Translations under genes and position numbers: made by a program
Shown here: in pieces, positions 22,763-58,934 of the stretch
Layout: each line of letters begins with the position of its first letter
How positions within the stretch are numbered: the first letter of the stretch is position 1
Notes under the pieces: model-generated
Seen by the model: only the letters and a program-made list of their open reading frames with translations
Databases searched by the model: none
Told to the model about the DNA's origin: nothing
Source of the DNA: Hypomyces perniciosus
Taxonomy: Eukaryota; Ascomycota; Sordariomycetes; Hypocreales; Hypocreaceae
DNA length: 64,000 bases
Assembly: GCA_008477525.1 (NCBI GenBank)
Contig: SPDT01000001.1
Location: 5,146,001-5,210,000 of the forward strand
Direction of reading: 5' to 3'

Positions 22763-22962
22763 CAGCTTGGCCAACTTGGTGAGCTGGTCGAGAAATGGCA
22801 CCACAAGCCAGATATGGTATACAATAAGCTCTCCTACCTCGTTGGGTAGGTACCGGTGGATAATCTTGGTCGTGCCGGTAATACTGTAACCCTTGTAATA
22901 AGAAGTCACGAAACTGACTAGTCCGTTTTCAATGAAAATGTTTCGGCGACCTCCTGAGCCAT
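22763..22962 (-). pseudogene. fragment D of the YR-RecQ family (middle of the recombinase domain)
   Basis: The minus strand reads GGRRNIFIENGLVSFVTSYY, KGYSITGTTKIIHRYLPNEV and GELIVYHIWLVVPFLDQL. These match GGARNIMIHKRMVCFVALYH / KGFRSKGEAKVIHRYLPQEV / GELLMWYLWLVLPF in locus B and the equivalent region of locus C. The stretch contains the conserved lysine of the tyrosine recombinase beta-hairpin. Neither the first arginine nor the GH-x8-Y block is present, so this is an isolated fragment of about 66 residues. It shows that the family was once present outside the 41-59 kb cluster. Confidence 0.75.
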
Positions 22963-40701: not shown

Positions 40702-41252
40702 ATATTATAAGAAAAGAATAGATAACGAGGGAATTTATGGCCTATTCACTCAATGAATCTTAATTTGTAAATTTGGATACCCGTCTAGTAAGATTAGCAT
40801 CAACGTGAACACCTGCCTTGTGGTCCCTTCTAACATGGGAGTATCTGAGACACTACTCAAGTATTCTGTCCTGGAACGGGGCCCGTTCCAGGTTTTAGAC
40901 CAATCAGCTCCTATGGACCCTTCCCCTGTCTTTCGCGTCCGTAACAGGTCCCGTTCCAATTTCCCGTCGATTTGGCTCTGGCAAGACACGTAACGGGCCC
41001 CGTTCCAGTTCCCGATTATCCTTGTAGAGGCAAATGAATCTCATCTTATATACAAGTAAATACGCCATAAAGCCCTCCTTTTCTCCCGCCATTAAGTAAA
41101 AGAAGTTATTAATTATTAAGACAGATCAAGTCTATAAAAGGGAGTAGTTATAGAATTATATAGATAGATTATCCAACTATCTATCTGATATCCCAGCAAT
41201 CTTTAATACAATGTATTATACTATCCAGCAATATTATCCGATAATGTAAACC
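40702..41252 (+). promoter_or_regulatory. upstream region of locus A with repeated CCCGTTCCA motifs
   Basis: Contains a near-perfect palindrome CTGGAACGGGGCCCGTTCCAG (10-bp arms, one central base) at about 40873-40893. Two further copies of the half-site, GGTCCCGTTCCA and GGGCCCCGTTCCA, lie within 120 bp. The positions, 250-380 bp before the start codon of locus A, fit a regulator-binding cluster, or the end of an LTR; neither is proven. Confidence 0.35.
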
Positions 41253-44200
41253 ATGAGCCGCTCTTTCAACTCATTTCCAGATGGCCTCCAAGACAGCAAC
41301 ATAGGGGCCATCTCTCGGTTACATGCGCCGGAATTAGCGCCTATTATGCAACAACTTACGCCTAAGCAGCTTGATATATTGCAATCTCTAGGCTTATACT
41401 ACACTAACTCCTAGGCTGCAATTATATGTATTCCCTGTGGGTTTGCATTTAAGGCGGATGGCGACCGTGTTTCGAGGCATCTCGGCGAGAAACATGGATT
41501 GACTAAGAAAACACGATGGGGACTCAACAAGCTCATTCAGTCATTGAACCTACCTGATCCAGCAAAGTTGCCACCGAGACCGGATAACTCGCCACGGCAC
41601 CCCCATCTATCGCTGCAGACAGGAGCAGCCTGTAAATATTGCATATTTCGATCGACTAGCCTTAAGCTTCTCTCCCGGCATTTGAAGAAATCGCACAAAT
41701 CCAAGATCAAGCCTAATAGCAAGGGCCGTTGGCTGCGGGACCATATCCATGACAGGCTTATCTTCCAGAGTTGGCTTCCTAGTGATATCCATAATTCTTG
41801 GCTAGTCGAGCAACCGCGCCGGTCAGGCCTCGTTCTCAGGCCTATTGTGGCAGCCTCTGAAGCCCTTCAGCGTCGTGTGGAGGAATTATGCGCACAGGAG
41901 CTGCAATATCTATCTGCCGGGTCAGTCGTTGACAGGCAGACCGATAAAGCATCTACACCACCGGCCTTATTAACCAGCTGGATGCGACGGACAGGCTGGG
42001 CCGAAACCTTCCCAAGAACGCGCCGTGACTTCCTTGTGGCACTCTTGGTGCTACCCCTCCCTAACTCTGGCCTACTTACACTTCTAACACGCGATGGGAC
42101 AGTATTGCAGTGCTCTGAGGCCGACGAAAATAAGCTGGCTATAGTTATTGCAGCCCTCGACCATCTGCTCGATCGCTGTGGAGACACAGTAAAGCACACA
42201 GATGTGTCGCTGCGTCGTTGGCTGAGGGGTAGATATCCAGATCGTCCCTTCAAGGCGCCATTCGAGCTTGTTGCTAGGGCGGAGTCGGAGGTGAAATATC
42301 GGCGATTGTTGAAGAGATGTGTGTGTTTTGGATCCGATTCTGGCTGCTGCCCCGGTCAATCACGAAATCCTTGACTTGTCGCACCCTTTACGCGGTGCAG
42401 AACGGAGCTATTAAGTCTCTCTGGAGTGACCCGGTGTGGGATAGGTGCACTCTGCCAACTGAGGTTACGCATAACGAGTGGCAAGCAGAAAGCGAGGTCG
42501 GTAGTGAAGGCGACGACGACGACGACGAGGGTGAAGACAATGAAGACGATTATGGTGATGAAAATAATGAAAGTGGAGAAGAGGAGAGTAATGGGGAGAG
42601 CGAAGCCGAGTATGATATAGACTCTCTGACTGAAAGTTGCGAGTCGATTATGCCACAAGACCCTGCAGCTGATATACTCCTGCGCTTCTGTTACTTTATG
42701 GCAACAGAAGATTTTGAGGATGGCAAATCAAGCTCAACGCTGCTGATATACTTTAGTGCCCTGTGTGGACTCTCACTACCAGACGGATCCGAGTTTCTTC
42801 GACCGGCCGCGTTTACCACATATTTATCCGGGCTAATTTACTGCGTTCGACTTATCATGATTGAGGCCATGCTGCCCCGATTCTCTCATTATTACGTCGG
42901 AATTAAATCCAGACCTCGCAAAGGCCAGTTGGAGATGTTAAATGGCATTCGCCGGGAGAAGATGTGTGACGGAACGATGTCACCATTGGGTGAGTTGTTG
43001 AGTCTCTTGGCTTTTGGCTATGCTCTTCGTCGATCGGAAGGACCAGCCTTTCTTTTCGAGTGGAGCGATGACGGTGAAGAGGTCTCGTGGGACGGAGAGT
43101 TCCGGCTGACCATGAATGCCTTCCGTGGTCTCGTGCATGACGTGCTCCGCGCTGCCGCCCAAACCTCGCAACGTCTGATGTATGACTGGGAGCCGCCAAA
43201 ACCGGACTTCAAGAGTATCACAGACAGGCTGTCCAACCCAAGAGCTGGCTATTCGTTCGTTACGGACCCTACGAATGGATTGGCCAAGGCTTATCTGGAC
43301 CTGTTAACAAAAGCATGTATCTCACCTATTGATGGCCTGCTGCAAAAGATCAAAGGGAGGGAAAGCTCTTGGGATCTGGAAGCTGTCGACAAATACATCA
43401 AAACCCACGACAAGCTCCTGAAAATGCTTATGCTACTATTTCATCTAGGTGGCGGGCAAGGCAGTAGGATATCAGAGCTACTGACCATCGAGTACCGCAA
43501 TACATCTTCACGGCTCCGAGGCGTTGGGTTTTATGCTGGCCGAGTGTTCGCCATCACTAGGCACCATAAGACACGTCTCACAACAAACAATGAGTTCCAG
43601 GTTGCGCGGTTCCTTCCCATGCCCATTGCCTTGATTATATATCATCATCTGGTCTTTATTAGGCCGATGACGTATATGCTTCTGCGCACCTGCTTTCAAA
43701 GGAACACTGAAAGTGCCCTCCTCTTTACTCCAGCTGGGGGTTCCGTTCCCTGGAAAACGGCTACTTTCTCTCGAGAGTTGCAGCATTTCAGCAAAGCCTC
43801 TCCAGAAATATCGTTCAGTATTGGGGCCCAACTATATCGACAGCTTTCTATCGCCATTACAGAGAAACACGTCAGGACTGCGGCTGGATTCTTTAATCGG
43901 TATGATGACTTGACGGCGAAAGGCGACCCTGACGTGGCGTTTGCGTGGCAGAGTGGCCATAGGCTGTCTCAGAGATACTCTGCATACGGGCTTGATGGCG
44001 CCTATCCAAATCAATTACAGCCAGCTCTTTTGCAGCTGTACCTTAAGGTATCCGAGCAATGGCATGCGTTTCTTCGGCTTAGGGATGCAGATGATGAGAG
44101 TGGCGATGCCAGTCCATGTCATCCTCATCCTGAAGACCACCCTGTGGGTAGTGTAACAACAGTCCCTCAGCTATTAAAACGACCTTACCCATACACATCA

Positions 44201-44914
44201 CCAATATCCCAATCAGAGCATCTACCAGCTAAAAGACAGTGCACCATTCGAGAACCTGCTAGCCAACCTTACCCTGCAGTCGAGGGTATTAGTCATGAAG
44301 TTGACTATAGTTCAACCGAGGATATTGCGTGTCATGACGCATCGGCGGCAATACCAACAAGCCCCACGCCACCAATTGAAGATGAATCGTCTATCCAACA
44401 CCCAGAGGTCGATGCACCTATTCGCATTGGTCCCTTTGAACATTTGCCGGATCTTAATCTGTTTGTTTGTCGTGTTTGCAAATTTGCGGTGGTATCTGAT
44501 GAGGTGGTCACGCATTTAAAACGCGATCAACATCGCCGAACAGTCACGCCACAGCAAAGACGAGACATTCAATCCAAGATCCAAGCAGTACCCGGGATTA
44601 TACGGAACCAAGACAGCCTCAGAAGTTTTAAATATCCTGCACCAGAAAGCCCAGCAATCTCAATACTTGGGCCCCCTAAGATAGATGGCCTAAAGTGCAA
44701 TGAATGCAGGTATATAGTCCGATCGAATACTGCAATGAAACGGCATTGCTATAAGGAGCATGGATGGCAGAATGACTGGCAGAAAGGAGGGAACGTGAAA
44801 TTAAAGGCTCAGCAGGTACGCAACTTGCCCTGGACGACCAGTATACAATGTCAGCAGCTGTTCCCATCACGAGCGGCTAGCGGGTGGTTTGAGGTTAGTC
44901 GCAATAGCGTTTAG
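41253..44914 (+). pseudogene. locus A: OrsD-like zinc fingers, tyrosine recombinase, second OrsD domain
   Basis: Starts at ATG 41253 and is interrupted by one TAG (41412-41414) and one frameshift in the GTGTGT run near 42320. Segment 1 has two C2H2-like fingers: CIPCGFAF ... HLGEKH (C59, C62) and CKYCIFRST ... HLKKSH. The recombinase core follows, with Arg in GGGQGSRISELLTI (codon 43466), a conserved second Arg in LYRQLSIAI (43838) and GHRLSQRYSAYG (His codon 43958, Tyr codon 43985, spacing +9 as in tyrosine recombinases). A linker rich in Ser/Pro follows. The C-terminal 165 residues are an OrsD/DUF3505 domain: VCRVCKFAVVSDEVVTHL, DGLKCNECRYIVRSNTAMK and PSRAASGWFEV. No helicase is present. 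The last domain closely matches the N-terminus of locus B. Confidence 0.75.
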
Positions 44915-46769
44915 GGCTATTAGACTTAAAGTAGATATAGTTAAAGTATTAAGAGCAGAGATTTATACTACTTCTTAAATAGCATTAAAGTAATAGTATA
45001 AAATAATATATAATGTTGTAATTAAAGGTTTATAATTAACTTAACTGATAAGCTAGAGTAAAATATAGAACGCGCGCTATTCTATTTTACAGTAAAGCCG
45101 CAGTTTCTCCGATTTTGTATAAAAAACGAGAGAGCATTAATAGCAGGGAATATCCATATAAGAGCAAGTTATGAATACTCCGTCAGGAAAAGAAAAAAAA
45201 TTCTATATTAAGTTATAATATATTAATTTAATATCTATAGAAAGCCAGATTTAATTCAATTTAAACAAGGATTTTTAATTATATTTTTAATAATAGGTTT
45301 AAGAGTAATAGTGCATTTAGGTTAACAGTATATTAATTAGTTAGTAAAAGCGGCAGCCGCAGTAACCCCGTATTTATACTAGAGCAGGAAAAAAAGGTAT
45401 TAAATCCAGTAATATTTTAAACGTTAAAATGCACGGATATTCTATCAATATAAAGCTAGATTTTAGTTTATTTAAATACGTATTTTTAATTACATTTTCA
45501 ATAATAGGTTTAAAGGCAACCGCCCAGTTAAGTTAAGAATAGTTCAGTAACAGTAGCTTGTAATAGGTCCCATCCCCGTTTCCGGTTTAATCATAGCAGG
45601 CCCAAGATACAGATTAAATAAATAAAAGTTATATTTGGGTTATAGTTATATAGAATACAAGATACAGGTAGAATCAGAGAGTGGGATTGTACCGAGATAA
45701 GCCATTGTTGAAATGCCCAAAAGCTCGCGAAATAGAAGGAGAGTCCAAAGCAATAAAGCCCAGAGGTAATAGATATACAGGACTAAAAGAAGGCAACGCC
45801 AGCAGCAGAGTTGCAATAGTATAGACCAAGCTTCAGGTCAAGCCCAACAGAGGGCAAGGTCATAACGAGGGCAAAGGGCGGGAGGGAGGAAAGGAGGGGT
45901 ACTTGTAGTTGAGTTCAGCGGGCAAAGAGCATGCCCGAAAGATGAGGCCGACAGGCGGATGAGGCCGTTGAGCGGGGTTTTAGACCAGTATAGCAGGAGG
46001 AGAAGTTCATGTAAGTGAGCCGGCAGTGGCATTGGATATCAGGGTTCGGGGCAGACGATTAGCGCGGGGCCGGTTCCGGGATAAAGCGGGGCCGTAACCC
46101 GATCGAGGGGCCGCAGGATAGGGAAGAGTTAATATATATTATATAAAATATATATAAATTTAATATAGATAGAAAGCCAGAATTTAAGTGGTTTAAATAG
46201 GTATTTTTAATTAAATTTCCATCAATAGATTTAATGGCAGCTGCCCAGTTAGGTTAAGAGTAGGTTGGTTGGTTTTAGTGAGAGTAGCTTGTTTTCCAGT
46301 TTCCAGTTTAGCCGCAGTCACCGCAAGGGTATAGCAATCCAGAAAGAGAAGAAATTGACAACAGTCAAGTGCATAAGTATTTACTGGGTTGAAATATATA
46401 AATTTAATATCCCAGGAAAGACAGATTTTCAGTGATTTAAATATACATTTTTAATAATATTTTCAACAATAGAGTTCATATCAATAGCCCAGTTAGGGTT
46501 ATAGCCACGCATATTCCATACCATCGTATTCAGAGATAATCGCATTCAAAGCAGGACTAGCCATAGCAGTATACGCTGAGATATATATAGCCATACAGCG
46601 GCCGCAGATGGAAAAGGAAAACTTGCATAATACGAGTTAAGGCGCAATTTGATGGTCAAACGCATAAAGGGTAAGGACCAGGGAGCAAAATAGGTTTAAA
46701 TAGAAGCCATTATCCATTATGAATTTAATGTAAAGAGTTGTTTTTTATTTATTATTTGTAGTCGGAACA
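44915..46769. repeat. AT-rich intergenic block with four degenerate about 90-bp repeats
   Basis: Four blocks at about 45241, 45453, 46171 and 46412 share AAAGCCAGATTT ... TTTAAAT ... ATTTTTAATTA ... CAATAATAGGTTTAA and are followed by CCCAGTTAGGTTAAG-type sequence. GCCGCAGT motifs separate the blocks (near 45107, 45357 and 46310). Frames here are short and full of stops. This could be a repeat-rich 5' region of element B or RIP-mutated DNA. A probable splice acceptor, TTTATTATTTGTAG, ends at 46760 just before the start codon of B. Confidence 0.55.
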
Positions 46770-49700
46770 ATGGAGCCGTTTATCCATTTGGCAGAGTACC
46801 CGTTCGTTATATGCAAGTCATGCAGATTTGCGTGTATAGCCGACGAGGTGTCCGCCCATTTAAAGAGGCATCATTTATCAATTCAAGCCGACGAGAGAGG
46901 CCAGATTACACGCGCAGTCGGGACCATCCAAGGGATCATTCGAAACCAGGCGACATTGCGCGAGTTCCAGTTGCCAGCACCCGCAACCGAGCCGATCCCA
47001 TTCATTCAGCAGCCCCAGTCGGATGGGTTAAAATGCAATGAATGTCCGTATGTATGTCGGCAGGTGCGACGTATACAGGAGCATTGCCGCAAAGTTCACA
47101 GATGGCAGAACGAATGGACGAAAGGCGGCAATGTGGTGAAGAAGGCCCAGCAGACACGCGTAGTGCCGTGGACAGCCGGGGTGCGTTGCCAGCGATTTTT
47201 CCCATCGCGGGCAGCCAGTGGGTGGTTCGAAGTTGGCCAGAGCAGCGAGTCGTCGGACGAGTCGTCAGGGCAGCCGGCAGACGATATCGCCGAACGGATC
47301 AGACGAATCCATCAAGATCAGTCAAAACGGTTCGAAGCAAAGAGACAGGAGACCATCCGCGTAGCCAACGAGAAGATGGAGCCCAATTCGTGGTTGGATT
47401 TCGTCGGTTGGGCACATCATTTGAAGGGTTTAAACTCGGCCCGGTTGCGTGAGGCGACGGGGCCGATTGGAGAGGAGGAACCAGTGTTGCAGCGGATGTG
47501 GGAGAGTTTAGACCGCGTGATGGACCAAGCACGCACGACGGCGACGGCAACCAAAGTCTGGGCACCGGCGTTGTTCGAGGTGCAGCGGAAGGAGGTGCAC
47601 ATCAAGCCGAACAGGCCGTTTGACAACCGGTTGGAGGATGATACGTGGGCGCGGTACAAGGACGTGTGGAGGAAGTTGTTGTGTGTTTTGCAGCGAACAC
47701 AGGGGTGGGCAGGCAGCGAGAGGCCGCCATACAGGTTGACGCCCAAGCAGCGCGAGGCGTGGGCCATGTGGAAGGACACCGTGGAGGGGGACATAGAGGC
47801 GGCAAGCCATGGGATGGGGGTGGTAGGGGACGAGACGGTTGACCGGATTTGTTTGGACGCGGTGGTGCGGTTGTTGGACCACCAGATGAAGCAGAGCCAT
47901 TACGACAACGTCGTCATCAGCGGGTTGGCGGTTTTGGGGATCAGGGACGACGGCGGGTGGATTGATGCGTTGGATTACACGCCGGTTTATTCGGCCGTGA
48001 TCAAGGTGGCGCGCATGTTGGTGGTGTACCAGTCGTATTTGGAACGGGAAGACGAGGTGGCGGAGTTGATCAAGGTCAAGAGGCTGGACGAGGACGAGGC
48101 GCGCGAGAGGGCGAGAAGTGTGTTTGGCATCGTGCGAGGCAAGGTGCAGCGGTTCATGACGCAGATCACGGACAAGAAAACGGCGGAGCCAACGCCGATG
48201 GATTGGATATTCGAGTCGCGAACGTACGGCATGCGCATCCGATACGATACGGCGGCGGATGGCAGCATTGATTGGGACGGCGATCGGGTCACGCACCGAA
48301 GAGTCAGGTTTACGATGGGCCAGTTGTCGGACATGTTGCACACGTTGGTGGGGGAGACACGGGGGTTGTTGTCGCAGTTGGCGATGACGGAGACGGAGGG
48401 CATTGGCGGGTTGCCCAAGATCGAGTGGTCAAGGGCGGACGACGACCACAGAGAGGACCGCGTAGGTCATTCGTTTATACAGGACGACCGGAACGCATCG
48501 TGGTTGGAAAGGGGCAAGGATTGGGTATTAAAGCGGATTTTGGATTCCAAGGCCAAGATAAAGGCATGGTTCGCAGCGGGCGGCAGCGGCAGCGGCAGCA
48601 GCGACGCAAGCCCATACAAGGGCAAGGCGATCCGGGAATATGGACAGGCAGTGACCCAGTTCCGCGAACGGTTGTGGATGTTGATGCATATGACGGGCGG
48701 GCAGCCGGCGCGGGCAACAGAGATTTCGGGGATACGGTTCGTCAACACGGTCAACGGCGGGGCGCGCAACATCATGATACACAAGCGGATGGTGTGTTTC
48801 GTGGCATTGTACCACAAAGGGTTCCGGAGCAAGGGGGAGGCCAAGGTGATCCACCGGTATTTGCCACAGGAGGTAGGCGAGTTGTTGATGTGGTATTTGT
48901 GGTTGGTGTTGCCGTTTTGGCAGACGGTTCAGAGCGTGGTGAAGGGAGGGGGGCGGTGCAGCCCGTTTTTATGGGCAGACGAGATTGTAAGCCGGGAGCA
49001 GAAGGAGAGCAAGATGGAGAGGCGGGAACGGGAGCGAGAAGAGAGGGAGTGGGCAGAACACGGGGGCGACCAAGGGGAGGAAGCCGTGCCGGCGACGGAG
49101 GGGTTTGCCGATTGGGTCAAGGAACGCAAGTGGACGTCGGACCGGGTGCGGCGGATCATACAGCGTCACAGCGAGAGGTTGTTGCCAAACCGGTTGAACA
49201 TTAGTTCATGGCGGCATATAGCGATCGCCATAGCCAACCGATATTTGAACCGGGCGTTTGGGCAGATGGGCGGAGAGGGAGGTGAGGGAGACGAGGAGGA
49301 GGATGCAGATAACATGGAGGACAGCGTATGGGATTTGCAGGCAGGGCACGGAACGCACGTCGCAGGCATGATATACGCAAGAGAGTTGCAGCAGGGGCCA
49401 TTAGGGACGGCGACGCGGCGGGACCAGTTCCGGACGGTTAGTCGGCAGTGGCACCGGTTTTTAGAGTTTGGAGCGGATGATTGTGGAACGGGAGTGGGTC
49501 CGGGCCGGGGACCAACGTTCAAGAGACGGCGGGACCCGTTTGAGGGGCCACGGGAAGAGGCACGGTTCCGGCGATTCGTACGATTGCAGCAGACGAGCAT
49601 GCGGGGCCAGTTACGGATGATGATGGGGGAGGACGTTGAGTTCCGGGGCAAGCAGGAGATGGTGATCCGGGCGGTGGTCCGGGGAGAGAGCCCGATCATG

Positions 49701-50285
49701 CAGATCACGGGAACGGGAGGGGGGAAGAGTTTGACGTTTATGTTGCCGGCGTTTTGTTCGCCGGATGGGGTAATGATTGTGGTGGTGCCGTTGGTGTCAT
49801 TGCAGGAGGATTTACACGATCGTTGTGGGCGGAGTGGGATTGAGTCGCATATTTAGCAGAGTAGGCAGAGCAACCGGGCAGCGGTAATCGTATTCGTAAC
49901 GCCAGAGTCGGCGGTTACAAAAGGGGTCAGGGATTTCGTCAACCGGTTACAGGTCCGGCAGGTATTGGACCGGGCGGTTGTTGATGAGTGCAATGCGTTG
50001 TTGGATGGCACAGATAAGTTCAGGCCCCAGTTAAAAGAGTTAGGGCCGATATTACAGGAGTGTAGGGTATAGAGGGTGTTTTTGACAGCGACATTGGCGC
50101 CAAGGGATAAAGGCAAGTTTATAGGGTAGCAGGGTTATCAGCGAGTCGGGTGCGTATATTCCGGTCACCGACGACGAGGAATAATATTGAGTATAAGGTA
50201 GAGACGGTAAAGGGGGCGGCGGGCAAGCAGGAGGAGGAAATAATAGTAATGGTGTTAAAAAGGAGGGCTAAAAAGCAAGGATTTC
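46770..50285 (+). pseudogene. locus B: OrsD - tyrosine recombinase - RecQ helicase, 3'-truncated
   Basis: The first 1028 codons are open (46770-49856). Residues 1-165 are an OrsD/DUF3505-like C2H2 region (C15, C18, H30, H34; C89, C92, H105, H110; PSRAASGWFEV). Residues 600-880 hold the recombinase core: GGQPARATEISGI (R648), GNVV-type hairpin with YHKGF, SSWRHIAIAI (R815), and GHGTHVAGMIYAR (H860, Y869). Residues 960-1028 begin a RecQ helicase: ITGTGGGKSLTFMLP (Walker A, K986) and VVVPLVSLQEDL. The frame then passes TAG stops (49854, near 50068, near 50107) and one frameshift near 50140. It still reads VFVTPESA, VVDECNALLDG (DECN in place of DECH) and RVFLTATLAPRDKGK. At about 50285 it becomes unrelated sequence; motifs IV-VI are lost. 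Confidence 0.8.
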
Positions 50286-52749
50286 AGTGTAATTGGTTAA
50301 CCTTCCTATTCTGGCTAGACCCGGAATTAGGCCCGACGCTAGGACCGAGTTCCGGAGGAACTTCGGTGTAAGTCAGGAAATTTCTGTTATCTTCAACGAT
50401 AACAATTGAGCTAGGACCAGCTACCCTGCCTACCCTAGACTCAATACAATGGGCATAATGGCCATTGTGAAAAATCTGACCAAAATGGTTTCCTGTTTGT
50501 ATGGCCGTGAGTCGATTTGGCCGATTTCCCATACAAATGAATTTTGCGGAAAATAGGAATGCGGCCACGAACCCAATTCTGCCACAGCACGCCTATTTTT
50601 AGGTCGGAGGACTATTGTAGAAGACAAAGCATTGTTCTACAATCACTTCTACAATCCAGCCGCACATCACTAGATATTCTATAGCTTTCTAGCTATTAGT
50701 TCAGTTACAATTCAATTGTTCATCTATTGTTAACCCAATTAGACTCTCAGTCGTTTCCTCATTGCTGCGTTGTGTGCAGCTTCCTAGAAGCTACACATAA
50801 ATGAGGTTCAGTATAACCTTGTTATTTCAACAATAGAGAAAAAGTATAATAAAGTGGGAAGTAGTTAATTTTTCAAGGTTTTTAAAATAGGAGATTAAAA
50901 GGGATAATTTAATAAAAGATAGTAAATATAATATTTCCAGTAAAGGGAAAAAGGAATAATAGTAAAGAATATAAGAAAATAAATAAATAGTTTATATAGT
51001 AAATGGAAATAAATAAATAAAAAGGTTGAAGGAATAAAAAATTAGTGAAAATAGGTTAAGTAGTTAATTTAAGATGGTGAAGTTGAGCGGGAGGCAGGAA
51101 ACGAGGGTTGGCGAAGCAACCCGTTATGGTTAGGGGGAGCAGTTAGTTGAATGGTTAGGGGAAGGATTGGTGAATGGTTAGGGGGAGAGAATAATATAGA
51201 TGGTTTATATATAAGAGATTAAAGCCATGTAATAAAAGCCCATCGCCACGCACAACGCCACCGTTTTATTTAACCATAAATAAAAGGTAGGTCGAAAATA
51301 TAGAGAAAGCCAGTAGATTTACAATTAAGGTCGAGGATAGTAGAGTATTATAGTTACAGGTATATAAAAAGTGAAATATATAATTTTATAAAAGGCAGTA
51401 TAGATGGTTCAACAGTAAGGTTAAACAGATTAAAAGGGTTAGTTTAAGTATATGATAGTAAATTACCAAGACAATTCCATTAATTTAGCCATTAAAAAGA
51501 TCAATTATAGCATAGAATACGAGGTAGTTGGCGGCGGATATATATATTATTGAGGCCAATGACAGCAGGGCATTATAACAGCGGGGCGTTAGCGCAAAGC
51601 CGGGATGCATTTTAGCGGGCGTAAAGCGTCAGCAAAATAAATTATATAGGTATATAAAGAGGGTAAGCATCCGATTTCATATACGAGCCAACGCGGATTT
51701 ACATTTATTTTACACGAGGCGAGAAGGCAGCAGCCAACCAGGCAGCGAAATAAATACAGGTCAATGTTATGACAATACAGGCGACAAAGACATTCCCGTT
51801 TAGCAGAATGATGGGCAACGTACAGCGCAGGCAGATGGTTAATAATGCAAGCGGGCCGAACAGCGTATTGGTATGGGGATAAATGTGTTGTGTTTAGCAT
51901 GCAAGGTATGGCAACAAATGCGAGCGAATGAGGATGGAGGGATTTAGATTTTGGGATATAATTGACATGCAAGACAGGCAAAGCATGCGGGTATCGGAAC
52001 GATGCAATACAGGTTATGAAGCAGTTGGTTCGTGTGGTAGAATACGCAGCATCCAAGCATCCAAGCATTCGAGCATTCGAGCATTCGAGCAGCGATTGGG
52101 ATTGGGGGTAGAGATGAAGGCATAGGATTTATGTGTTTAGAATATCCGGGCAGCACGCAAAGCAGCACAGAGAGCAAAGTACAGACGATACAAAGCATCA
52201 GAGGCAGATAATTAACAGCGTCAACAGCGTCGACCGACAGCATCCGCAGCGTCAATCGCCACATCAACAGCAGCATCATCAACAGCATCAGCATCAATTC
52301 ACCATATGTCGTTTTTCGAAAAAGGTAGCGAAAGGGCAGGAAGCAAGGTGGTACAAGTACAGGTTATCAGTGTGTTAGGGAAGTGGGTTGGCAGGGAGTT
52401 TTCGGTTACAAGCGGGCAGCAGTTGGTTAGTTGTAGAGTGGGGTGGGACAGTGTAAGGAAGAGGGAGAGAAAGGGAAGAGAAGAGAAGAGAGAGGGAGAG
52501 AAGAGAAACAAGGTGGAAGGGTGGTTTAGAGGGCAAGGGCAATCAGCAGCGGCAGACAAGGTAGTGGAAGTGGTGACGAGAGCGGGAAGGGCGGTTTTGA
52601 GGGCGGTTCGAGGCACGGTTAATGGTTAGGAGGTAGTTAAGGGCGTGAAGGGTTAGGGTTACAGGTGGAAAGTTAGTAAAGACGACAGTTAGGGTTGCAG
52701 AGAGGAGGGTGGGTTTAGAGAGAGAGAAACAAGGGGTTAGGTTTTGGGA
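50286..52749. other. no gene seen; AT-rich with TTAGGG-like and CAGCATCA-type repeats
   Basis: No supportable frame. Noteworthy parts: GGTTAGGGG motifs at about 51127-51185; the run CATCCAAG CATCCAAG CATTCGAG x3 near 52050-52090; a stretch of CAGCATCA variants at 52180-52295; and purine-rich GGGAGAGAAAGG at 52455-52520. It may be decayed element and subtelomere-like sequence. Confidence 0.45.
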
Positions 52750-53612
52750 GACGAGTTAGGGTTGGGTTAGGCTATATTTTGCTGCCTAAGCTGTTCTGCC
52801 CTAGTGTTATCTAGCTATCTAGTTTAATTAGACTTTAATAGGAAAGAGTAAAGGAAATTAGGAAATAAAAATAAAGGAAAAGGATAGAGGAAAGGATAAA
52901 GGAATTGATAAGGAAAAGGATAAAGGGTAAAGGGTAAAGAATAAAGGATAAAGGGTAAAGGGTAAAGAATAAAGGATAGAAGATAGAAAAATAGAAAAAT
53001 AAGAAATAAAGGATAGAAAAGGATAGGATAAGAAAGGAAAGGAAAGGAAAGGAAAGGAAAGGAAAGGAAAGGAAAGGAAAGGAAAGGAAGCTGTATTTAG
53101 TTAGAACGGTTTTTCTGGGCCCGGCTAGCTAGCCAGCTAGGATCTTTAGACCTAGGGATTTCCCTGGCTATAGAAACTGCTGATTGGGCCTTAGTCTTAG
53201 CTAAGGTTAGCCCAATAAGGCTGTCTAGCCATTTGGCTGCTGTTGGTCCTATAAGCTGCTGCAGCTCTTTATAGAGCTTAGCAGTAGTTTTTTCCATAAG
53301 ACCGCCGGCTGAGAGGATAATAGGCCTAAAAGAAGCACCTAGGGCACTGTATTTACGGCGTTTTTCCTCAGCTGCCTCTGTAAGCGTGCTATAGGAAAAT
53401 TGAAAAATCAGTAAATTGACCCTAAGCCTGACCCTAAGCCCGACCCTAAACCTAGAAAATTCCCTATAGGAAAATTGAAAAACCGCATCGGCAGGGTCAA
53501 CAGCGTCATCGGTTCGCCGAACCGAGTATGCAAATTGTAATGGGGGCTCCCTAACATTTTCCGTTGGCGGGTGGGTGGCCCATGCGTCGCTGAAGGCCGG
53601 GGGGCCTACCAT
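52750..53612 (-). pseudogene. second copy of the REL-type element C-terminus, with long GGAAA tract
   Basis: The minus-strand frame encodes TEAAEEKRRKYSALGASFRP, IILSAGGLMEKTTAKLYKEL, QQLIGPTAAKWLDSLIGL and TLAKTKAQSAVSIAREIPRS, the uninterrupted form of the piece at 1733-2649. Upstream, beyond about 53390, sequence of the element is lost and a CCCTAA-like run (GACCCTAAGCCTGACCCTAA) follows. Downstream of the stop lie (GGAAA)n at 53032-53089, a longer AT/purine tract to 52848, and the conserved 3' end near 52760-52840. The REL motif itself (RAD ... D) is not in this copy. Confidence 0.55.
52848..53092. repeat. homopurine-rich tract with (GGAAA)n, (GGATAAA)n
   Basis: About 240 bp almost free of C on the plus strand. 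It includes GGATAAAGGGTAAAGGGTAAAGAATAAAGGATA repeats and ends in twelve GGAAA units (53032-53089). Unlike a normal transposon tail it is interrupted and varied. Confidence 0.7.
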
Positions 53613-53981
53613 TTTCTGGGGGTGGGCTGGTTAACAATTTCAACCCTAAACCAGAGAGGGTCAGAGCGGCCAATCATCTTACACGACGTCCAGGGTTAGA
53701 TGAGAGAGGCGCTTCCCATCACATTGCCGTCACACAAACACATACGAATAGAGCACTACTACATGATGATTATATATGATATAACTATAGATAATTTATA
53801 AAATAGGGGGCGGTATGGGCTACATGCACATATATATAGAGAGACGGGCAGACAGGACACTCGCAGACCAAATTGTGATATATATATATGACTTGCATCG
53901 GAAAGCAGGGTTGAGACAGCGGTACAGCCTGCCACAAGACTGGCTCGCCCATTGCGTCTGGAGCGACATCTACAGAGCAGG
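53613..53981. promoter_or_regulatory. probable 5' region of locus C
   Basis: AT-rich leader with TATATATAG motifs near 53830-53890, directly upstream of the start codon of locus C. No specific site assigned. Confidence 0.35.
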
Positions 53982-56900
53982 ATGGAGCACATCGAGTTCC
54001 TGCGCGAGTATAATGTAGCTGCATGCCGCGAGTGCCACACAGGTGTCCGGCTGGAATACATCAAGGGCCACTTCGCCGCGGGGCCTCACCGGTTAGGCAA
54101 AGGTGAGAGAGATCAACTCTTCAACGCCGTGAGCAAGCTATTCCAGGACGCCAGGGGAGACGGAGATGGAGATGAGGCCATGACAGCGAACAGCTCCGTT
54201 TTGCGCAGGCCACCAGCAACATCGCCACCGATAGAGGCCCTGGGGCCACCGCTAACAGGAGGATTTCGCTGCACGTTTCCAGGCGGCGGTGGAGGAGGAG
54301 GGGATCCCAATAGTGACAATAACGAGGAAGAGGCTGAATGTGCCTATGTGACAGGTAGTAGCAAGGCTATCGAGATTCACTGCCGATATAGCCACGGGTG
54401 GAAGAGCGCGAGAGGTCGTGGAAGACCCCGCCGATACGGCCGCGAGACGACCGGGCGGCCAAGCAATCCATGGCGGTCCGGCGTGTCATATCAGCGCTTC
54501 TTCGCTCAGGGACCAAACTCAAGCTTCTTCGAGGTTAATCGGGGCTGGGACACGAGCGACCAGCAAGGCAGGGGGAGCAACAACACTGGATCATCGGGGC
54601 CGACCGACGACAATGCATTCGACCGGCTGCTGGGCAGAATGCAGGAGCGACATCGAGAGCTGGAGGAAGCGGAGCGAAGCCAACTACTGGTCGTAGACGA
54701 TACCAAGGAACCGGACCCATGGCGGCGTCGGGTCGGCGTCGGTCGTTATCTAAAGCAGGCCGAAGAGCTTGAAATAGAGCTAGCACAGCTGCGTGATCTC
54801 GTTCAACGGCCCGTTGACGCAGTCACGCCGGATGGCGGACCGAGAGAAGAGAGTCACATCGCCGAGGTGCATCACGCTTTCCGGCGCCTAATCTGGAGCG
54901 CGAGATCCAACGCCATTCTCGAAAAGGTCGGCATCTTTGCCCTCTTCGAGGTCGAGCGACGTAGCTCGGGCCAGGAGTCCAATCGGCCGTTTAACGCCTA
55001 CATCCGCCGCGCGACGGTTTGACGGTACCGGCATGTCTGGAACGGCATATAGACCTTTATCTTGCAGATATAGCAGCTGCCGTTAAAGGAGCGCCCGCTA
55101 TTCACCATTACGCATGACCAACATCGGCTGCTATTTAACGTCATAGACGAGGCGAAACGGGTGGCAGCGGCCAGGCCGAGGAAAAGAGGAAGCAGGGCAG
55201 CAGTATCCACCGCCGGCGCAACAGATCGTGGCCCAGGAACTACTGCTTTGAGCCTCAAGGAGCTCCGGGTAAGGCTCGACGACGCCGTTCTCGACCTAGT
55301 CATTGGGCTGTTAGACCACGCTCTAAATGATGACGCGTACGAGAGCATTCTTATTAGTGCCCTGGCCGTGTTGTCCATTGAGGAAGATGGCTCTTTCGCA
55401 GACCTAGAAGACTTTCTGCCGCGCGTGTCCGCCGTCATTAAGTTCGCGAGACTCCTAGTAGTTCAGAAGGCCCACAGATCCCGCGCCCAGGATATTGCAC
55501 AGGAAGTTCGGGCCAGCGGCCTGTTGGAAAAGAGTGCGGCCACTGTAACACCAGGACATATAAAACGAGTGACGGCTATGGTGTACCGGTTTATGGTCCG
55601 CCTTCCTAAGAGCAAGCGAGAGCCAAGGCCCATTGACTGGCTACTTAGCTTGCGCACATACGGCCTGCGCATCCAGTACACCACCCCCATCGAGGGTCAG
55701 GTCTACTGGGTTGGAGATGTCCTGCACTACCGGTCAATCCGCTTCAGCATGGATAGCCTGCGTGGCTTCGTCCGCGGTCTAGCTGTCGACATGCGCCGCC
55801 TGCTATTTGACTACCTTCTCCTCGCGGACGACGATGGGAGTTAGGGTATTGTTGGCGATGACGTTGCCTCTAGAGGCGGTATCCCACGAGTCGATTGGAA
55901 CTGGGTCGACAACCTAACCGAGAAGTCCGTTGGGTAGTCCTTTCTAAAGGACATTTGGAACCGGTTTGAGGTGGATAGAACGCAGTGGCTTGCGCGCCGG
56001 ATTTTTGCAAACCGCAAACTCTGCAATAAGTTCGTCCGGAAGGAGCATGGAGAGGTGCACTGGGTAAAGAAGGCCATGGACCAGTATATGCGGTACACAA
56101 ACCGCTTTCTAGAGAAGCTTCTTCTAGCCATGCATTTCACCGGCGGAGGGCCAGCGAGGGCTCCGGAAATTAGGAGCATACGGCACAGGAACACGGCCAA
56201 CGGCGGCGTGAGGAATATCTTCATAGACCAGGGCCTCGTCGTCTTCGTCACGATGTATTACAAGAACTACGAATGGTCTGGTAAGCTGAAGCCGATCCAG
56301 CGGTTCATCCCACGAGAAATCGGCGAGCCGCTGCTACTCTTCCTCTGGCTAGCTCTCCCGTTTCTCGAGACTACGCAGGCGGTGATGACGAAGGACTCAA
56401 GCGGGCCGCCCTCTCCCCCCAGCGCATTTCTCTGGGGCGATCGAAGCTTCGTCGGCGCTGATGAAGCTGGTAGTAGCGAGAGCTCTAGCGAGGGCGAAGG
56501 TGATGGCGAAGATGATGGCGGCGAAGCCGGGACCGATGGTAGTGAAAGCGAACACCAGCAAGCGATGCCCTTGCCCCGTCAGGGGCAACAAGCGAAGCGG
56601 CGGGCTAAAAGACGTCGTGGACGACCGACGAGGTGGACACCGGACCTAATGCGGCGGCTGGTGAAGCAGGAGACGGAAAGGCTAATGAAGGTCAAAGTCG
56701 GCGTTAATGCCTGGAGACAAGTTGCACCGGCCATCACCAGGCGATATCTTATAACTGGCTTTAACCCTGACCTCTATGGACGACAGGATCAGGAAATAAG
56801 CCATGAGGATGAATATGAGGACGAATACGAGGCCGCTCCGGCCCGGGACAGCCCTTGGGACGAGCAGACCGGACATCGAAGTTTCACAGCCGGCATAGTG

Positions 56901-58934
56901 TACGGCGGGCTTACCTCAGAGGCCGAGTTCGAGTCCATAGACACGCGGGCGCGGTTTCGCGCTGTAAGCGAGGACTGGCACCGCTTCCTACAGTTCCCGT
57001 CAAGTATTGGCGACGTTGGGCCTGTGGCAATAGGACGCAAGCGTCGCGCGCCGTCGTACTGGGCAGCGGCAAACAAGGAGATTAGCCTCGAACGATGGAA
57101 GCACATGGTAGACACTGATATCCATGCACAGCTTAAGGAATTGGTAGGCGCCGAGGCACAGTTCCGAGGCGCCCAGGAGCAGGCCATCCGAGCCATCATG
57201 CGTGGTACTAACCCAATAGTCGTTATTATGGGGACTGGCGCGGGAAAGAGCCTGTGCTTTATGCTACCCGCCAGCTGTGCACTCGGTGGGACAACTATTG
57301 TGATCGTGCCGCTCACGTCGCTCCAGGGCGATTTGCAGCGTAGATGCAAGAAGAGTGGTATATTAAGTATAGTGTAGACTAGCCGTCGGCCGCATAATAC
57401 AGCTGCCATCATCTTCGTGACACCTGAGGCGGCTCTAAGCGAAAGCTTTGCCGGCTTACTGACACGGCTTGTAGCATCGCACCAGCTGGATAGAATTGTT
57501 ATTGATAAGTGCCACGTAGTCCTAGATGGTAAAAAGGACTTCCGGCCAATGCTGCGAGAGTTAGGTGAGCTCGTCCTACGTGGCATCCAGATGGTGTACC
57601 TCACAGCAACCCTACCTCCTCGAGATAAGGTAAAGTTCTTTTGTCTTATATATATTGACGAGGGGAGAGTTATAAAGTTCCGTTCCCAAACAACACGCAA
57701 AAATGTGCGGTACCAAGTTCTAGATCTAGACCTGCCTCCGCCGGTATGCGACGCACTAGGCAAAGTGAAGGAAGACAGCCTCGAGGCAGCCCTACAGGAG
57801 CTGGTGGAGCAGAAGGTCAAGCAGTATACAGCGCCTGCGAAGATAGTCATATACTGCGGCACAATTGATACAGCTAAGCGGGTGGCCGCCAGGCTAGGAT
57901 ATTCCTTGTACCACCACGACGTTGACACTGCCTCCGGGAAGCTGCAGCTGTTGACAGACTGGATGAATGGACAGTGCCCAGGGCATAGTCAGGTATCGCG
58001 GCGAGTCATGGTGGCCTCGAGCGCATTGGGACTCGGCATTGACGTAGGTGATATTCGCGTCGTTGTTCACACCGGGTGGCTGCGAAAGCTCAAAGACTAC
58101 GCACAGGAAAGCGGCAGGGCAGGCAGGGACGGGTTGCCAAGCGAGGCGATCGTCGTCCGCCGATGCAATGATAATAGCAGCTTGGCCGGTGGAGGTAGAT
58201 ACATCGGAAAGCCCAGGGTTGCCACGAGTCTGAATGAAGAGTTAGAGTCAGACTTGGCTCCCACCACTGGTCTAACCTTGGCCAATACGATTACCCACCG
58301 CAAAGGTAAACAGTTTCCCGATATAGATGAGTACGTTAGTGGTCACTACTGCCGACGGAAGATCTTAGATATGGTCATGGACGGTTGCCCTAATATGGTA
58401 GGTTGTGAGGACGGCGAAGAGCGCTGCGACATATGCGATAAGTGGATGACCTACCGAACTGCGGACCAGGAAGAACAAACCGCTGCCAGGGTGGAATCTG
58501 AAGTATTGGCCGTACACAACAGCATTCGACTGTACGGGCATAAGCTTCGGGAGCGGGTAGGTCAGAAAAGGGCGGATGCGGTTGAGAATGTTGAGCGCTT
58601 ACGTGACTACCTTGAGCTATGGGCCGGGAAGTGTGGGCTGTGTTGGTGGCTAGGACACGAAAGTGAGGACCATACTATTTGGGGTTGCGCGGCAGAGAAT
58701 GCGGAGCTTGTGCGCTATGGGATCGATATAATGCACCAAGAACTTCGTAAGTGGAAGCCTATGGAAGACTTTTCTGGTAGGTGTCTGCTCCCATATAGCT
58801 TCTATAATAAGTGGCAGAGCCGGGGAGATACTGGGGGTTGGGAGCTAGTCAACGACGACGGTAATAATGGCAGCTGCGAGGAAGCATCATGTCAGTTTAG
58901 GGGCGAGGTGGCCGGTGGTAGATTTAGATTATAG
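53982..58934 (+). pseudogene. locus C: OrsD - tyrosine recombinase - RecQ helicase, one frame with six in-frame stops
   Basis: The start at 53982 aligns with locus B (both have C15, C18 and H30). The frame has 1650 codons without any frameshift. Six stops interrupt it: TGA 55020, and TAG 55050, 55071, 55842, 55935 and 57375. Residues 1-175: OrsD-like C2H2 fingers. Recombinase: GGGPARAPEIRSI (R726), YYKNYEWSGKLK, NAWRQVAPAI (R912) and GHRSFTAGIVYGG (H965, Y974). RecQ: MGTGAGKSLCFMLPA (K1089), IVPLTSLQGDLQ, FVTPEAAL, VIDKCHVVLDG (motif II, Glu replaced by Lys1176), VYLTATLPP, KIVIYCGTIDTAKRV, MVASSALGLGIDVGDIRVVV and AQESGRAGRDGLPSEAIV (R1379, R1382). A RecQ-type zinc cluster follows (YCRRKILDM ... 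CPNMVGC ... CDICD), then a C-terminal extension with CGLCWWLGHESEDHT. Most complete copy of the family. Confidence 0.85.

Follow-up and report, generated by a model that had tools for sequence, protein, structure and literature searches.

Background

Reports of subtelomeric RecQ helicase genes in fungi go back to at least 1998 (citation within PMC5576322). Later papers describe helicase and DUF3505 repeat families at all 24 subtelomeres of the Colletotrichum higginsianum assembly (PMC5576322), TLH genes in Fusarium (PMC12857005, PMC11499160, PMC4994206), OrsD and RecQ at the chromosome ends of U. maydis (PMC10532341), RecQ repeats in Zymoseptoria (PMC4522978), and a location of TLH genes within about 10 kb of the telomere (PMC11499160). 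The literature searched gives no clear account of why such genes have spread to many or all ends, and the main texts of PMC5576322, PMC12857005, PMC11499160, PMC4994206, PMC10532341 and the telomere review PMC8381367, a set that does not cover the specialist TLH literature, nowhere use the word "recombinase". The DNA considered here (the window) is a stretch of 64,000 nucleotides from Hypomyces perniciosus, C3:5146001-5210000 in a genome of 44 Mb and 23 contigs, several of whose ends carry TTAGGG repeats; the protein relatives of the window mark it as fungal. It contains three neighboring loci, A, B and C, which, as read from their sequences, appear to be decayed members of a fungal protein family whose central part is a tyrosine recombinase (YR) domain equipped for catalysis.

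The family resembles the TLH genes and the C. higginsianum repeats in its RecQ-type helicase and near-end copies and, for C. higginsianum, in DUF3505 (OrsD) (PMC5576322, PMC12857005, PMC4994206), and is set apart, as far as the published descriptions extend, by the YR lying between OrsD and RecQ. Crypton is likewise a fungal DNA element driven by a tyrosine recombinase, but CryptonF has GCR1_C and the available text describes it without a helicase (PMC3212892), whereas A, B and C show no GCR1_C match. Starship captains (DUF3435) differ in that A, B and C have no PF11917 match; several DUF3435 genes are present elsewhere in the genome, one of them at C3:5030531-5031835, about 155 kb upstream of the cluster and on the same strand. 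A captain is itself a fungal tyrosine recombinase that moves DNA, and in bacteria two or three different YRs act jointly in XerC/XerD with FtsK and in the recombinase-in-trio elements, one of the two Xer recombinases being linked to a DNA motor. In those bacterial systems the motor is separate or absent, whereas here RecQ is fused to one YR and to zinc fingers. The DNA transposons Helitron, AcademH and KolobokH use HUH or DDE enzymes and not a tyrosine recombinase. What they would share with the present family is a helicase inside a mobile element (PMC10799480). Neither a YR fused to RecQ nor two YRs in tandem in one gene appears to have been described within the literature searched, specialist TLH papers lying outside it.

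Conservation of the recombinase active site

Relatives were gathered with the middle region of B (316 matches) and with the A region (158 matches), the best 120 of each being used; those named are mostly ascomycetes. The B-type alignment of 107 rows consists of B, C and 105 relatives of at least 800 amino acids from the best 120, and of two further profiles, A2 was built on 68 of the 120 best A-type relatives and A1 on 75 of 120. A sequence-only reading of this DNA had placed two arginines, a histidine and a tyrosine of a recombinase core in B and C, and the histidine and tyrosine in A, with a His-to-Tyr spacing of +9 in all three loci, and both the residues and the spacing proved correct. The lysine of the beta-hairpin, a fifth catalytic residue, had been overlooked. 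In the B-type rows these residues are R648 (105/106), K683 (106/106), R815 (104/105), H860 (102/102) and Y869 (102/102), and in the 69 A-type rows R397 (69), K431 (69), R521 (68), H561 (68) and Y570 (69). Such conservation of the B residues exceeds what chance would give: a level of 97% is attained by just 52 of the 474 columns in the B stretch, and by 67 of 466 columns in A.

An alignment of 35 YR domains, taken from 33 sequences, extended this result. The first arginine (Arg I, R-x-x-E) is present in 33 of 35 domains, the exceptions being one proline and one gap, and the hairpin lysine, the second arginine (Arg II), His III (the His/Trp position) and the tyrosine nine residues on are each present in 35 of 35. 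The sequence-only reading had allowed that its four residues might not be conserved across the wider family; they are, in the B-type rows and in the 35 domains alike. The five positions correspond to R173, K201, R292, W315 and Y324 of Cre (letters in the P1 sequence), residues with catalytic roles. A subtilase interpretation of the GHGTHVAG stretch was rejected: PF00082 reaches E 0.15 there in B and matches in 10 of 30 relatives (best 0.0048), and in the recombinase this stretch forms the His-III/Tyr segment.

Fold and identity of the domain

In AlphaFold models aligned by VIA-align to the candidates returned by Foldseek, Cre ranked above all else aligned to B, with a clear score gap beneath the YR-superfamily chains, and Xer, Cre, Tn1549 integrase and topoisomerase IB ranked at the top for A, the first three outscoring the topoisomerase. 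A fold unrelated to tyrosine recombinases, which had been considered at the outset, is thus not what the predicted models show; both match YRs best. The fold assignment is drawn from VIA-align of these candidates because Foldseek by itself was not significant.

A number of results count against recombinase identity. Foldseek gave a best E of 1.1 for B, with no recombinase in the best 50 of 98 matches, and just E 0.045 (XerH) for A, and the His/Tyr segment is modeled with a predicted local distance difference test score (pLDDT) below 50 in both. In A, B and C, Pfam yields no YR family (PF00589 or other) at E<=1, and neither DUF3435 (PF11917) nor GCR1_C is matched; in relatives, for which 25 of 33 and 25 of 47 Pfam families are listed, a weak YR match in single proteins is possible beyond these. 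When the catalytic profiles were compared with individual Cre and XerD sequences by hmmsearch and hhalign, no match was significant; of the four hhalign pairs, Arg I is aligned with Arg I in A/XerD and B/Cre but not in A/Cre and B/XerD. Finally, the second-box histidine (H-x-x-R, three positions ahead of Arg II) is replaced by Ser in 96 of 105 B-type rows and by Gln or Arg in 65 of 69 A-type rows, the other four A-type rows having His (2) or Lys (2). This replacement is the sole departure from the textbook YR set, and the position also varies among accepted tyrosine recombinases.

Other searches returned mainly the helicase. Against PDB sequences, B (41 rows) found helicases including RecQ, weak subtilisins and a C2H2 protein but no YR, and profile A1 found RecQ and other helicases with no YR in the best 60 of 230; PHROGs gave one helicase family at 6.5e-5 (C) and others weakly, IMG/VR scans with profiles A1 and A2 gave no relative, and Rfam gave no match. 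Taken with the active-site conservation, the model comparisons make it very probable that the family is one of tyrosine recombinases and has kept its catalytic residues.

Domain architecture and tandem recombinases

Pfam identified OrsD (PF12013) in every locus, with two copies in A, together with a DEAD domain in both B and C and a Helicase_C domain in C; between OrsD and helicase it gave nothing relevant. The order OrsD–YR–RecQ, earlier ascribed to all three loci, therefore holds for B and C, in which OrsD and RecQ are found by Pfam, but not for A, where Pfam and family profiles find no RecQ part and the C-terminal module is a second OrsD. Among the best 120 of 316 B-type matches, OrsD–YR–RecQ is the commonest order (65 proteins), the remaining rows being without an end or having a split domain; complete-looking members are about 1400–1740 amino acids long, and DEAD plus Helicase_C were present in all 30 B-type relatives scanned. 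Among the best 120 of 158 A-type matches, OrsD–YR–OrsD is commonest (41), followed by YR–OrsD (32) and OrsD–YR (26), with a RecQ match in 9. By these domain orders the family comprises two main kinds, OrsD–YR–OrsD (A) and OrsD–YR–RecQ (B and C). The A and B profiles align over OrsD and recombinase alike (hhalign E 1.9e-58), and A and B are therefore paralogues.

In some relatives two recombinases are modeled in one chain. A search for long proteins yielded 20, among them P0243, a Metarhizium anisopliae gene model of 2674 amino acids with two YRs and RecQ (OrsD 4-173, YR 519-995, OrsD 1073-1209, YR 1506-1989, RecQ 2030-2659), and P0244, a Fusarium oxysporum gene model of 2032 amino acids with the order YR, YR, RecQ. 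The five residues are kept in both YRs of P0243, and the second YR of P0244 has an alignment gap at Arg I. In H. perniciosus the locus C9:34842-42122 (minus strand) has a P0243-like order, OrsD–YR_A, OrsD, YR_D and RecQ, across three open frames to which P0243 aligns colinearly at 41%, 37% and 33% identity. Separating the YR_D and RecQ frames is a stretch with GGTAAGT, a motif resembling a splice donor, and splicing that joins the two is possible.

The tree built from the 35 domains separates clade A (18 rows, 100/100) from clade B (11 rows, 100/100) and places six D rows in two lineages; the C branch is long (1.79), in keeping with a decaying copy. Locus tags suggest that an A/B pair is adjacent in Fusarium poae (FPOAC2_10245, A-type; FPOAC2_10246, B-type), and in two further cases A-type and B-type proteins come from contigs of matching length (11,646 and 831,323 bases), read as the same contigs.

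Loci A, B and C

The cluster runs from locus A to locus C as previously described, although it begins at about 41346 in the window and not at 41253; all domains are on the plus strand. Locus A starts with an N-terminal OrsD (C2H2) region at 41346..42329 (PF12013 E 2.2e-8; profile A_Nreg 408.6 bits), with a change of frame at about 42.33 kb, in a conserved block close to its end. The recombinase follows, first its helical, core-binding-like N-terminal part at 42650..43387 (profile YRA_N 365 bits), then the catalytic domain at 43391..44086 (profile YRA_cat 346 bits, residue conservation and fold; codons R 43466, K 43568, R 43838, H 43958 and Y 43985). In frame with it is the second OrsD region at 44426..44911 (PF12013 E 4.6e-16), 49% identical to the OrsD of B, the recombinase and this module sharing the single open frame 42278-44914. 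Directly upstream of A is an inverted repeat (40871-41008) of two 26-nt arms, 85% complementary and 86 nt apart. The AT-rich gap between A and B (45218-46518) contains a direct repeat of about 125 nt in four diverged copies, 66-73% identical to the first.

Locus B has an open frame from 46770 to a TAG at 49854, in which OrsD (46770..47315; PF12013 E 1.3e-16 and family profile) and recombinase are uninterrupted. The helical N-terminal part is at 47376..48578 (profile YRB_N 601 bits) and the catalytic domain at 48609..49481 (profile YRB_cat 463 bits, conservation and fold), with R648 at nt 48711, K683 at 48816, R815 at 49212, H860 at 49347 and Y869 at 49374. The RecQ that had been read in B is real in its N-terminal part, found in two frames at 49539..50254 across the in-frame TAG, but its homology ends at position 240 of the 643-position RecQ profile (from position 2), near 50254, where a repeat of about 580 bp begins (50253..50833, strand not assigned). 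Pfam finds only the first part of the DEAD domain, and the DExH-box position reads DECN in translation; the B helicase is probably dead through truncation. The repeat, with at least 49 matching genomic places mostly 94-97% identical, is perhaps an element resembling a miniature inverted-repeat transposable element, or a solo long terminal repeat. A strong G-over-C skew (0.22-0.34 per 2 kb) covers B and the B–C gap (window 46001-54000), and an additional fragment of a B-type catalytic domain (80.8 bits) lies at 22769-22957 of the window on the minus strand.

Locus C is a single frame interrupted by six internal stops. Its OrsD region is at 53982..54566 (PF12013 E 2.8e-10 and family profile), the helical N-terminal part, with in-frame stops, at 54705..56045 (profile YRB_N 297 bits), and the catalytic domain at 56058..57002 (profile YRB_cat 260 bits, and residues), with codons R 56157, K 56262, R 56715, H 56874 and Y 56901, the last two being the H965 and Y974 of the sequence-only reading. 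The RecQ helicase (57063..58856; profile 3-566 of 643, 581 bits; PF00270/PF00271) has both DEAD and Helicase_C domains and a TAG at 57375. In 30 relatives the Asp and Glu of the DExH box are invariant and the His nearly so, and because this box is altered to DKCH in translation the C helicase is probably dead. The five recombinase residues are retained in A, B and C despite this decay.

B and C are about 40% identical, and their TAGs (49854 and 57375) fall at the same codon, which is Trp in 91 of 91 aligned rows with a residue there, the stop of C excluded. A recurrent programmed stop was considered and rejected, as B alone terminates at this codon among the 107 rows; the coincidence may be due to chance or to an editable UAG.

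Genomic location

Distances to the nearest contig end were measured for 11 loci, a set separate from the matches on C5, C8, C16, C22 and three further C3 places. The closest are 3.5 kb (C21), 17.5 kb (C10), and 35 and 48 kb (C9), the tandem-YR locus on C9 lying 35–42 kb from the telomere, and these suggest a bias of the family toward chromosome ends in this genome. Contig C9 (1,362,776 bases, telomere repeats at both ends) holds 6 of 12 OrsD matches and is perhaps an accessory chromosome; the binomial probability of 7e-7 under an even spread by length overstates this concentration, because OrsD matches within one cluster are not independent. Pulling the other way, the A–C cluster itself is 156 kb from a contig end, compared with a position within about 10 kb for TLH genes and with 3.5, 17.5 and 35 kb for its nearest-lying relatives in the genome, six other measured loci are 247 to 628 kb from ends, and the fragment C3:2486848 (2.49 Mb) is mid-contig. 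The stronger case for a bias toward chromosome ends is that of C. higginsianum (PMC5576322).

Proposed mechanism and alternatives

The reading favored here, to which a probability of roughly 0.6 is given, is that the family provides the enzymes of a selfish or mobile element residing mainly near chromosome ends. OrsD zinc fingers would bind sites on the element, and the two YR paralogues would pair on these sites, much as XerC and XerD pair at dif. Strand exchange would involve a 3'-phosphotyrosine as well as a Holliday junction, with the RecQ part of the fusion opening or branch-migrating the DNA, and in outcome the element would integrate, be excised, or be swapped between chromosome ends.

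Several observations do not favor a mobile element. All three window copies are damaged and none is intact throughout, and the two-YR polyproteins are gene models rather than sequenced proteins. With the coding parts of A, B and C each used as sole query at the DNA level, B and C matched only themselves in this genome and A matched itself plus one 127-base stretch at 75%; because these are essentially self-matches there is no recent copy, and without a close second DNA-level copy this genome gives no sign of recent movement. Element ends, target sites, empty sites and excision products were likewise not seen in this one genome with no second DNA-level copy.

The lack of recent copies would also suit host TLH genes in which the YR-like domain stems from a recombinase captured long ago and now binds DNA at chromosome ends, the proteins serving telomere maintenance. 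RecQ-like TLH genes are reported near telomeres in several fungi (PMC11499160, PMC12857005, PMC4522978), TLH genes of U. maydis rise in telomerase mutants (PMC10532341), and domesticated Crypton YRs exist (PMC3212892). The same account, however, has domesticated Crypton YRs losing their active site (PMC3212892), whereas in the present family 33 to 35 of 35 domains retain it, and the copies are numerous, diverged, often broken and in several cases far from ends, making a host role unlikely.

Top3 works together with RecQ, and the YR might similarly act beside the helicase as a type IB topoisomerase or telomere resolvase, relaxing or resealing ends and moving no element. This is less likely still, given that Xer, Cre and Tn1549 integrase score higher and that two different YRs in tandem would seem better suited to paired recombination sites than to relaxation. 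That the resemblance is accidental, the domain being a helical linker without kinship to YRs in which four or five residues are conserved, would fit the lack of a significant sequence match to any tested YR, the weak Foldseek results, the middling Z that helical models often reach and the low-confidence His/Tyr segment, but is highly improbable when two separately modeled paralogue families each have YR-superfamily chains, and no others, as their best matches and the beta-hairpin lysine also belongs to the conserved set.

A mobile element remains the preferred reading, and an extension of it is put forward tentatively, as possible but doubtful: a new class of chromosome-end element in which twin YRs and a RecQ motor, in fullest form within one chain, would exchange or capture subtelomeres by site-specific recombination and thereby spread near-identical ends and accessory chromosomes in fungi. 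Some relatives do sit near ends, and a hidden recombinase may explain how chromosome-end elements spread. If this is true, the recombinase between the zinc fingers and the helicase would be a direct enzyme for the spread of subtelomeric RecQ genes.

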